Both the position numbers and the translations under genes were made by a program. Below are positions 3,671 to 49,315 of a stretch of 61,935 bases of DNA, one piece after another. Positions within the stretch are counted from its first letter, which is position 1. Every line of letters begins with the position of its first letter. This stretch comes from an uncultured Bacillota bacterium (lineage in GTDB: Bacteria; Bacillota_I; Bacilli_A; Erysipelotrichales; Erysipelotrichaceae): positions 1 to 61,935 of the forward strand of contig CASEQH010000031.1 of the NCBI GenBank assembly GCA_949290085.1. The letters run 5' to 3'. The notes under the pieces are model-generated. The model made no database searches. It was given only the letters and a program-made list of their open reading frames with translations, and had not been told where the DNA came from.

Positions 3671-3866
3671 CTCCCATTAAAAAAGGCGCTACCAAGGGCG
3701 CAATTAGCGCGGTACCACCTTCATTTATTACTCTGACTCTTAACGCGAGCGACGTCTTATTTTTGAATAAGAAGCTCCAAGATGTATTCACTTATCTGCA
3801 TAAATCATTTTCACCAGCCATGATCTCTCTACCTAATTCAATAAGCTACTAGTTCTCTTCTTAGCA
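3671..3866 (-). promoter_or_regulatory. Tyrosine T-box riboswitch
   Basis: The minus-strand leader of tyrS carries the T-box sequence GGTGGTACCGCG (3708-3719) and a terminator ending in a U run (about 3679-3710). A stem I specifier loop reads GTGAA-TAC-ATC, with TAC at 3784-3786. TAC encodes Tyr, agreeing with the downstream gene. Uncharged tRNA-Tyr should pair with the specifier and T-box and stabilise the antiterminator, allowing transcription of tyrS. Confidence 0.93.
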
Positions 3867-3871
3867 TATCA

Positions 3872-27543: not shown

Positions 27544-29081
27544 GATCTTACCTCACTGCGCTTAGCGCCGGCCATATATAAGCCAAGTTCTTCTTCGGTA
27601 ACTTCTTTAGGATTAACTTCGGCAACAATTTCTCCCTCATAAATTACCAAAATACGGTCAGAGACATCGAGTACTTCTTCAAGTTCTAAAGATACCAACA
27701 AGACAGCCTTGCCATGGTCTCTTTGATTAATCAGCTGTGAATGGATATATTCAATAGCGCCAACATCTAATCCTCTAGTTGGTTGGACTGCAATCAATAG
27801 TTCAGGGTCACGGTCAATCTCACGTCCAACGATAGCTTTTTGTTGGTTACCACCAGACATCGACCTAACGATAGTGATAGGACCCTGTCCAGAACGAACG
27901 TCATATTTCTCAATGATGTGCTCTGCATTCTTACGAATATTATCTCTCTTCATAAAACCGAAGAATTTAGATGAAAATTCTGGGGCAAAATAATTCTGCA
28001 AGACAAAATTATCTTCTAGACTAAAGTCGAGTACCAAACCATGTTTATGTCTATCTTCAGGAATATGTGCCATACCCTTTAAAGTTTTTTGACGAATACT
28101 AGCATTAGTAATATCTTCATCAAATAGCTTAATCTTGCCAGATTTAATTGGTTCTAGACCAGTTAAACCATATACTAACTCAGTTTGACCATTGCCATCG
28201 ATACCAGCAATACATACTATCTCTCCAGCTTTTACATTAAATGAGACATTCTTAACCGCATCATTTTTATGGCGATTAGAAGCTACAGTTAAATTCTCAA
28301 CAGTCAATACGACATCACCAGGTTTTGAATCCTTCTTGTTGACATGGAAATTGACATCACGACCAACCATCATCGATGAAAGTTCTTCTGCTGATGTATC
28401 GCAAGTATTGACGGTACCCACATATTTACCCCTTCTTAGTACTGTGCATCTGTCTGATACTTCCATGATTTCATTTAATTTATGCGAAATAAATAAGATT
28501 GATTTACCTTCGGCTTTTAAGTTGCGCATAATATCCATCAATTCTTTTATTTCTTGTGGTGTGAGTACTGCTGTAGGTTCATCAAAAATTAAAATTTCAT
28601 TATCGCGATATAGCATCTTTAAAATTTCTGTTCTCTGTTGCATACCCACAGTAATGTCTTCCACAATTGCATCAGGTTCAATAGATAAACCATACTTAGT
28701 AGATAAGTCCATTACTTTTTTACGAGCTTCATCTTTTTTTAAGAAACCATTCTTAACTGGCTCAGCCCCTAAAATAATGTTATCTAGCACGCTAAAACAC
28801 TCAACTAACTTAAAGTGTTGATGTACCATACCTATTCCTAAATCATTGGCATCATTAGGGTCATTGATGCTAACTTCAACACCATCCTTTTTAATAATGC
28901 CCTCTTCTGGCTTATATAAGCCAAAAAGGACAGACATCAGTGTCGATTTACCAGCACCATTCTCTCCCAACAATGCATGAATCTCTCCCTTTTTCAAACG
29001 GAGAGTTACATCATCATTAGCAATAATTCCAGGGAACTTTTTGGTAATATGCAACATCTCAACAGCATATGTTTCTTCCAA
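27540..29081 (-). CDS. Nucleoside ABC transporter ATPase (NupO/YufO type, two ABC domains)
   Basis: The 513-residue protein has two ATPase halves. The first has a full Walker A (LLGENGAGKSTLMSVLFG) and ILIFDEPTAVLTP. The second has IAGIDGNGQTELVYGLTG, with a degenerate Walker A, and LLIAVQPTRGLDVG. This duplicated layout is standard for BMP-family nucleoside importers. The start is TTG, eight bases after GGGAGG. Confidence 0.92.
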   Translation of the reverse strand: MEETYAVEMLHITKKFPGIIANDDVTLRLKKGEIHALLGENGAGKSTLMSVLFGLYKPEEGIIKKDGVEVSINDPNDANDLGIGMVHQHFKLVECFSVLDNIILGAEPVKNGFLKKDEARKKVMDLSTKYGLSIEPDAIVEDITVGMQQRTEILKMLYRDNEILIFDEPTAVLTPQEIKELMDIMRNLKAEGKSILFISHKLNEIMEVSDRCTVLRRGKYVGTVNTCDTSAEELSSMMVGRDVNFHVNKKDSKPGDVVLTVENLTVASNRHKNDAVKNVSFNVKAGEIVCIAGIDGNGQTELVYGLTGLEPIKSGKIKLFDEDITNASIRQKTLKGMAHIPEDRHKHGLVLDFSLEDNFVLQNYFAPEFSSKFFGFMKRDNIRKNAEHIIEKYDVRSGQGPITIVRSMSGGNQQKAIVGREIDRDPELLIAVQPTRGLDVGAIEYIHSQLINQRDHGKAVLLVSLELEEVLDVSDRILVIYEGEIVAEVNPKEVTEEELGLYMAGAKRSEVRS

Positions 29082-39780: not shown

Positions 39781-40008
39781 AATAAAAATGTCGTCTTTAA
39801 ACATAAAGACGACATGAATCGCGGTACCACTTTATTTGTCCTCAAGTATTGAGAACCCCTCTAACCATAACGCCAGTCTTGCGTCATCCCTACTACTAGT
39901 TCAGGACGATATCTCCCAAATGCGTTTCACTGTCGATTACTAGTCTGCTTCCACCGGCCAGACTCGCTTTTTAGCATCCTTTACAGCTACTACCTTTGTT
40001 CATTGATA
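39781..40008 (-). promoter_or_regulatory. T-box riboswitch upstream of the amino-acid ABC operon
   Basis: The minus-strand leader has the T-box AAAGTGGTACCGCGA (about 39819-39833). A 12-bp terminator follows (ATGTCGTCTTTA / TAAAGACGACAT, 39788-39815) with a T tract. In stem I the specifier region reads GTGAAACGCATTTGG. Either CGC (Arg, 39922-39924) or ACG (Thr, 39923-39925) could be the specifier. CGC is favoured by the C-ending codon and following purine, ACG by exact spacing relative to the Tyr T-box of this genome. Starvation for the cognate amino acid should induce the importer. Confidence 0.9.
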
Positions 40009-40013
40009 ACTAT

Positions 40014-48490: not shown

Positions 48491-48564
48491 GGTTCCTTAG
48501 CCAAGTGGTAAGGCAATAGACTGCAACTCTGTGATCGCCAGTTCGAATCTGGCAGGAACCTCCA
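48491..48564 (+). tRNA. tRNA-Cys (GCA)
   Basis: GGTTCCT/AGGAACC acceptor stem, anticodon loop CTGCAAC with GCA, discriminator T, CCA encoded. All stems pair. Confidence 0.96.
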
Positions 48565-48569
48565 AATGT

Positions 48570-48655
48570 GGGGATATGGCGGAATGGTAGACGCGTCGGA
48601 CTTAAAATCCGGCGGCAGCAATGCCGTAAGGGTTCAAGTCCCTTTATCCCCACCA
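48570..48655 (+). tRNA. tRNA-Leu (TAA)
   Basis: GGGGATA/TATCCCC acceptor, anticodon loop CTTAAAA with TAA, long class II variable arm (GGCGGCAGCAATGCCGT), AAGGG/CCCTT T-stem, CCA encoded. Confidence 0.97.
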
Positions 48656-48663
48656 CTTATTTT

Positions 48664-48740
48664 GCGCCCATAGCTCAACTGGATAGAGCGTTTGACTACG
48701 GATCAAAAGGTTGCGGGTTCAAGTCCTACTGGGCGCGCCA
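48664..48740 (+). tRNA. tRNA-Arg (ACG)
   Basis: GCGCCCA/TGGGCGC acceptor, anticodon loop CTACGGA with ACG (normally deaminated to ICG), CCA encoded. The T-stem GCGGG/CCTAC has a C.A mismatch at 50:64 and a G.U at 51:63. Confidence 0.96.
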
Positions 48741-48753
48741 TTTGTATATTTAT

Positions 48754-48830
48754 CGGGATGTAGCACAGCTTGGTAGTGCACTTGATTTGGGATCAAGGGG
48801 TCGCAGGTTCAAATCCTGTCATCCCGACCA
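48754..48830 (+). tRNA. tRNA-Pro (TGG)
   Basis: CGGGATG/CATCCCG acceptor, anticodon loop TTTGGGA with TGG, CCA encoded. Confidence 0.97.
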
Positions 48831-48848
48831 TTTAATTTAAAGAAATAT

Positions 48849-48925
48849 GGCGAGGTAGCTTAGTTGGCTAGAGCGCTCGGTTCATACCCGGGAGGTCGTG
48901 GGTTCGAGTCCCACCCTCGCTACCA
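48849..48925 (+). tRNA. tRNA-Met (CAT), elongator
   Basis: GGCGAGG/CCTCGCT acceptor with G.U at 1:72, anticodon loop TTCATAC, CCA encoded. The overall sequence follows the Bacillus elongator tRNA-Met pattern. Confidence 0.9.
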
Positions 48926-48929
48926 GATT

Positions 48930-49006
48930 GGACCCTTAGCTCAGTTGGTCAGAGCTACCGGCTCATAACCGGTTGGTCGTAGGTTCGAGTCCTACAGGGT
49001 CCACCA
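48930..49006 (+). tRNA. tRNA-Ile2 (CAT, lysidine type)
   Basis: GGACCCT/AGGGTCC acceptor, ACCGG CTCATAA CCGGT anticodon arm, CCA encoded. It closely resembles the Bacillus CAU tRNA that TilS converts to read AUA. The Ile identity is inferred; tRNA-Met is the alternative. Confidence 0.8.
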
Positions 49007-49022
49007 ACTTTATAAAACTTAT

Positions 49023-49113
49023 GGAGGAATACCCAAGTGGCTGAAGGGTCCGGTCTTGAAAACCGGTAGGTCGGGAAACCGGCGCCTGGGTTCGAATCCC
49101 AGTTCCTCCGCCA
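49023..49113 (+). tRNA. tRNA-Ser (TGA)
   Basis: GGAGGAA/TTCCTCC acceptor, anticodon loop CTTGAAA with TGA, class II variable arm, CTGGG/CCCAG T-stem, CCA encoded. Confidence 0.97.
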
Positions 49114-49159
49114 TTTACAAAAGACTTATATAATGCTAGAATATATAAGCAAATAACAT

Positions 49160-49237
49160 CGCGAGGTAGAGCAGTCTGGTTAGCTCGTCGGGCTCATAAC
49201 CCGGAGGTCGTTGGTTCAAATCCTTCCCTCGCAACCA
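49160..49237 (+). tRNA. Initiator tRNA-fMet (CAT) with mismatched T-stem
   Basis: The C1.A72 mismatch (CGCGAGG/CCTCGCA) and the three G-C pairs of the anticodon stem (TCGGG CTCATAA CCCGG) identify the initiator. CCA is encoded. The T-stem GTTGG/CCTTC carries T.T mismatches at 50:64 and 51:63, and the D-loop is one base longer than in the Bacillus initiator. Confidence 0.92.
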
Positions 49238-49239
49238 AT

Positions 49240-49315
49240 GGTTCTGTAGCTCAGTCGGTAGAGCATCGGACTGAAAATCCGTGTGTCGCCAGTTCAATTC
49301 TGGCCGGAACCACCA
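49240..49315 (+). tRNA. tRNA-Phe (GAA)
   Basis: GGTTCTG/CGGAACC acceptor, anticodon loop CTGAAAA with GAA, GCCAG/CTGGC T-stem, CCA encoded. Last gene of the array. Confidence 0.96.

Follow-up and report, generated by a model that had tools for sequence, protein, structure and literature searches.

The locus: an initiator tRNA gene with two adjacent U·U pairs

The window, a stretch of 61,935 nucleotides from an uncultured Bacillota bacterium of what we take to be the family Erysipelotrichaceae (order Erysipelotrichales), carries a cluster of tRNA genes on the forward strand, within which the gene studied here is the last but one. The following features are referred to below.

48491-49315, plus strand: tRNA cluster, Cys-Leu-Arg-Pro-Met-Met-Ser-fMet-Phe, containing the initiator (ARAGORN)
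49160-49237, plus strand: initiator tRNA gene (tRNA-fMet, CAU) with encoded CCA (ARAGORN, Rfam)
49195-49197, plus strand: CAU anticodon; its arm has the three G-C pairs that characterise initiators (sequence, ARAGORN)
49203-49207, plus strand: GGAGG (tRNA positions 42-46), complementary to CCTTC (61-65) in a competing fold (in silico folding)
49210-49214, plus strand: T-stem 5' strand GTTGG (49-53), with U50 at 49211 and U51 at 49212 (sequence; 17-base pattern at 49210-49226)
49222-49226, plus strand: T-stem 3' strand CCTTC (61-65), with U63 at 49224 and U64 at 49225 (sequence, 17-base pattern)

ARAGORN called tRNA-Met(cat) at 49160-49237, and the Rfam tRNA model scored the same gene at 56.7 bits (gathering cut-off 29). 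Its letters divide as CGCGAGG TA GAGC AGTCTGGTTA GCTC G TCGGG CTCATAA CCCGG AGGTC GTTGG TTCAAAT CCTTC CCTCGCA ACCA, so that the T-stem RNA is GUUGG/CCUUC, with G49-C65, U50·U64 (49211/49225), U51·U63 (49212/49224), G52-C62 and G53-C61. The acceptor, D and anticodon stems are intact, U27·G43 being a wobble; the mismatch at 1:72 is C1·A72, usual for initiators, the D-stem GAGC/GCTC has A11-U24, and the anticodon stem combines CAU with three G-C pairs at 29-31:39-41 (GGG...CCC). An earlier note had described both the double U·U and the otherwise intact initiator framework, and the letters agree with it. By every sequence feature tested this is a bacterial initiator tRNA gene; judged on its sequence, its product is a working initiator in which two adjacent U·U pairs replace Watson-Crick pairs at 50:64 and 51:63. 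The order of genes in the cluster is identical in one relative (G003, locus L038), and a second (G032, L035) has a partial cluster of matching order, Arg-Pro-Met-Met-Ser-fMet-Phe. Two T-box leaders lie on the minus strand of the window, at 3691-3871 and 39802-40012.

The E. coli initiator has the T-stem GUCGG/CCGGC, with C51-G63. The gene described here shares with E. coli tRNA-fMet the C1·A72 mismatch, A11-U24, three anticodon-stem G-C pairs, CAU, the encoded CCA and a weak 50:64, whereas E. coli combines U50·G64 with C51-G63 and the present gene has U·U at both positions. The weak U50·G64 to which the earlier note had pointed is the G64:U50 wobble named in PMC8887418. No description of U·U at 50:64 or 51:63 in bacterial initiators was found in the open-licence literature, subscription journals lying outside the scope of that search.

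Copy number, formyltransferase and other tRNAs of the genome

The genome is a 1.12-Mb draft in 72 contigs, estimated to be 93% complete. The earlier note had proposed looking for another fMet gene; a search of this 93% complete draft returned one initiator gene, that at 49160-49237, and no second. Methionyl-tRNA formyltransferase (fmt) is encoded (TIGR00460, 298.8 bits) and scored above cut-off in 56 of 60 relatives; since fmt is present, loss of formylation was rejected as a driver of the U·U pairs.

When the 32 distinct tRNAs of the genome were scored, the initiator alone had a tandem T-stem mismatch. Two elongators had a single 50:64 mismatch, namely tRNA-Arg(UCU) with U50·U64 and tRNA-Arg(ACG) with C50·A64. 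The latter gene, at 48664-48740, also has G51·U63, and C·A at 50:64 was seen in 6 of 25 distinct Arg(ACG) genes.

Conservation within the order

Relatives carry the same stem, as the earlier note had suggested checking: GTTGGTTCRANTCCTTC occurred in 44 of 295 genomes of the phylum and its reversed control in none of the 295. The double U·U was present in 30 of the 39 genera of the order sampled for an fmt tree and in 28 of 36 order genomes of one phylum draw; among the matches listed for the phylum sample, 24 of 29 order genomes had both U·U pairs. Cultured species of Holdemanella, Holdemania and Allobaculum have the same T-stem, among them Holdemanella biformis DSM 3989 (G308). In three relatives assembled as single contigs (G032, G037 and G041), the U·U form was the only initiator form found, so no normal second gene is hidden there. 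The double U·U is thus an old, order-wide feature, the product of neither chance nor error. Neither of the outcomes that the earlier note had named as refuting its reading, a sequencing error or a second normal initiator gene, was borne out by the relatives or by the search of the 93% complete draft. In the family member G022 the initiator lies at 28854-28930 of a 91,524-base contig, as it does in G308.

The other nine of the 39 genera differ from the double U·U, and an antideterminant kept clade-wide is therefore not what was found. In five of the nine (G009, G010, G011, G013 and G034), 50:64 and 51:63 are each either canonical or G·U. By pair type, the deviating initiators of the order have U50·U64 with A51-U63 (G006, G024), U50·G64 (G011, G013, G028), paired T-stems (G009, with G50·U64; G010; G034; G066), U50·C64 (G005) or A51·C63 (G027).

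Pair types in initiators and in other tRNAs

Pair types were tallied in at least 231 distinct initiator genes from two phylum draws, which are not phylogenetically independent. Among the matches listed, every 50:64 mismatch was U·U (68 of 68), and initiators with U50·U64 had U-A, A-U, G-C or U·U at 51:63. U·U at 51:63 occurred in 37 of these initiator genes, always alongside U50·U64, and A·C at that position once (again among the matches listed). U50·C64 was seen outside the two phylum samples, in G005 and in one of three copies at L089.

Among 445 distinct non-initiator tRNAs near the loci, 50:64 was mismatched in 20 (CA 8, AC 7, UU 3, UC 1, CU 1), and a tandem T-stem mismatch was present in a single one, a CAU tRNA of a Helicobacter. 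The tandem U·U is therefore almost confined to initiators. These counts of mismatch types, together with the rarity of tandem mismatches elsewhere, indicate that U·U in initiators behaves as an allowed pair and is not a sign of decay. Across the 295 genomes the 17-base pattern matched mainly initiators; its non-initiator matches in G032, G493 and G606 were checked and are not tRNA genes. The Helicobacter gene (Helicobacter sp. 15-1451, L161:3141-3216) has the same tandem U·U, along with U1-A72, U73 and an extra D-arm base.

Recurrence in other lineages

A species genome scan found the same T-stem in at least 119 stretches. The matches listed comprised Clostridia (56), Erysipelotrichia (16), other Bacillota (23), Mollicutes (6), Desulfobacteria (9), Bacteroidota (4), Campylobacterota (3), Cyanobacteriota (1) and Betaproteobacteria (1), to be read with the caution that many of the stretches come from metagenome-assembled genomes whose taxon labels may be wrong. 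The stem sits within unrelated initiator bodies in Clostridia, Desulfobacteria, Campylobacterota and Bacteroidota and has thus arisen more than once, and these bodies look like those of their own lineages, with U1·U72 in Desulfobacula and Bacteroidales and CGCGGAA acceptors in Sulfurovum. Among relatives of Desulfobacula and Sulfurovum within their orders (Desulfobacterales and Campylobacterales), most have GTTGG/CCAGC or paired stems, so the U·U pairs arose separately there. One Campylobacteraceae metagenome-assembled genome (L089) has three tandem initiator genes, one of them with U50·C64.

Rates of change and comparison with tRNA-Arg(UCU)

Changes were counted on the fmt tree of 39 genera, which has a total length of 33 changes per column. 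Positions 50:64 and 51:63 of the initiator changed 7 times each, and the free acceptor pairs 5:68 and 7:66 of the same tRNA changed 6 and 7 times, from which it follows that the stem is held to a few pair types but turns over at an ordinary rate. Slow evolution was accordingly rejected as proof of selection, the rate at the U·U positions being close to that of the two acceptor pairs.

The elongator tRNA-Arg(UCU) (G000:C52:37063-37138 in this genome, and its relatives) has a fast-changing 50:64, with C·U, U·C, U·U and A·C, and changed there 14 times on only 30 rows of the tree. It thus shares a non-canonical 50:64 with the initiator of the same genomes, U·U being found in G000 (the present genome) and G001, but differs from it in having mixed mismatch types and a 51:63 that is paired in all but one genome.

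Predicted stability and a competing fold

By nearest-neighbour energies, UU/UU is the most stable of the all-pyrimidine double mismatches, an estimate that does not fit the earlier note's description of the tandem as an "extreme" device. The energy model nonetheless puts the UU/UU T-stem several kcal/mol short of the stability of paired stems. In silico, a competing 42-46:61-65 fold of the present initiator lay about 1.1 kcal/mol below the cloverleaf, and in all GUUGG/CCUUC genes tested the minimum free energy structure used this pairing, at 1.1-2.1 kcal/mol below the cloverleaf; the same folding gave a gap of 0 for the E. coli initiator. Given the weaker predicted T-stem and the competing pairing, the tandem U·U may carry a real stability cost, although the folding model takes no account of modification or of tertiary contacts in the tRNA, which makes the meaning of the competing pairing doubtful.

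Interpretation of the tandem U·U

In bacteria, the formyl group and C1·A72 are the features credited with barring the initiator from elongation. The strength of EF-Tu binding is adjusted through pairs 49:65, 50:64 and 51:63 (PMC11231383), in agreement with the role that the earlier note had given them. The reading we favour, to which we give slightly better than even chances, is that an initiator that bypasses EF-Tu drifts among geometry-compatible pairs, tandem U·U included, and that any lowering of EF-Tu affinity comes as a by-product or poses a minor extra barrier. The initiator reaches the ribosome with IF2 and has no need of EF-Tu, so that its T-stem would be free of the tuning by which the T-stems of elongators stay paired, and might shift among Watson-Crick, G·U and U·U pairs. 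The U·U pairs, presumably with two hydrogen bonds each, would leave the helix continuous yet weaker. As a U·U pair can become canonical by transversion only, it could persist without positive selection. Any weakening of EF-Tu binding would add at most slightly to what the formyl group and C1·A72 already provide. A purely permissive account alone explains neither the retention of both U·U pairs in 24 of the 29 order genomes, among the matches listed, nor why U·U was gained separately so many times. The tandem U·U may be either harmless or of help in keeping the initiator out of elongation.

The main rival to this permissive account is selection for an antideterminant, in which tandem U·U would lower affinity for EF-Tu·GTP and bar unformylated Met-tRNA-fMet from elongation, by analogy with the eukaryotic A50-U64/U51-A63 block. 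In eukaryotic initiators the same two pairs serve as a mark, A50-U64 and U51-A63, alongside A1-U72, A54 and A60 (PMC4425011). The present initiator thus resembles the eukaryotic cytosolic one in having pairs peculiar to initiators at precisely 50:64 and 51:63, but its pairs there are U·U rather than Watson-Crick, and it has C1·A72 and U54. The earlier note's proposal of a device for exclusion from elongation stands in part: the mismatches do fall on EF-Tu-tuning positions, the tandem form is almost initiator-only and it has been gained recurrently across several phyla. Against such a device, neither fmt nor C1·A72 has been lost, some relatives have paired stems (G010, G034, G066) and the elongator tRNA-Arg(UCU) also has single 50:64 mismatches. 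A segment of EF-Tu, REGGRTVG, presumably faces the T-stem. It is unchanged in 27 of 30 relatives, the present genome included, and an altered contact segment, as far as REGGRTVG is concerned, was thus not seen in these 27. Exclusion from EF-Tu by the tandem U·U is possible, but we regard a selected antideterminant as rather unlikely, and a shade less likely again the broader claim that bacteria repeatedly evolved tandem U·U as an initiator-specific counterpart of the eukaryotic block.

A mutational origin was also considered, whereby CCTTC (61-65) perfects an inverted repeat with GAAGG or GGAGG (42-46), template switching in the course of replication would write TT at 63-64 time and again, and the result would have no function. 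The two segments pair at five of five positions in most U·U genes among the matches listed, and in G005 the CCTCC strand is the exact complement of its GGAGG. In Clostridia, however, genes with U50·U64 and A63 or C63, in which the repeat is incomplete (10 genes), are at least as numerous as those with U63 (6 genes) among the matches listed, and the retention of U·U is left unexplained; we consider this origin improbable. Still less credible, and given very little weight, is a role for the weak T-stem as a switch in regulation or maturation, worked by the competing 42-46:61-65 pairing or by slow RNase P processing: the competing fold is favoured in every GUUGG/CCUUC gene tested and has no advantage in E. 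coli, but the gap is small, and the initiators of G011 and G034, which lack the mismatch, show gaps of 1.7 as well. An error in sequencing or assembly, or decay of this copy next to a normal initiator gene, would fit a fragmented draft, but the cultured species, the single-contig relatives and the lone initiator of the present genome make its chance negligible, and for the clade it is already refuted.

The permissive account and its main rival concern a change that is U·U-only, repeatedly gained and initiator-biased, and which provides a natural test of whether bacterial initiators, too, use the T-stem. Any scoring of initiator genes has to admit U·U as an allowed pair.

A separate substitution was seen in the anticodon loop of some initiators of the order, where C33 replaces the near-universal U33 (GGGCCCATAACCC) at L035, L038, L269 and L073/L262 (G032, G003, G072 and G041, respectively). 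These C33 initiators belong to two of the order's families; elsewhere, C33 is known from the initiators of some eukaryotes.
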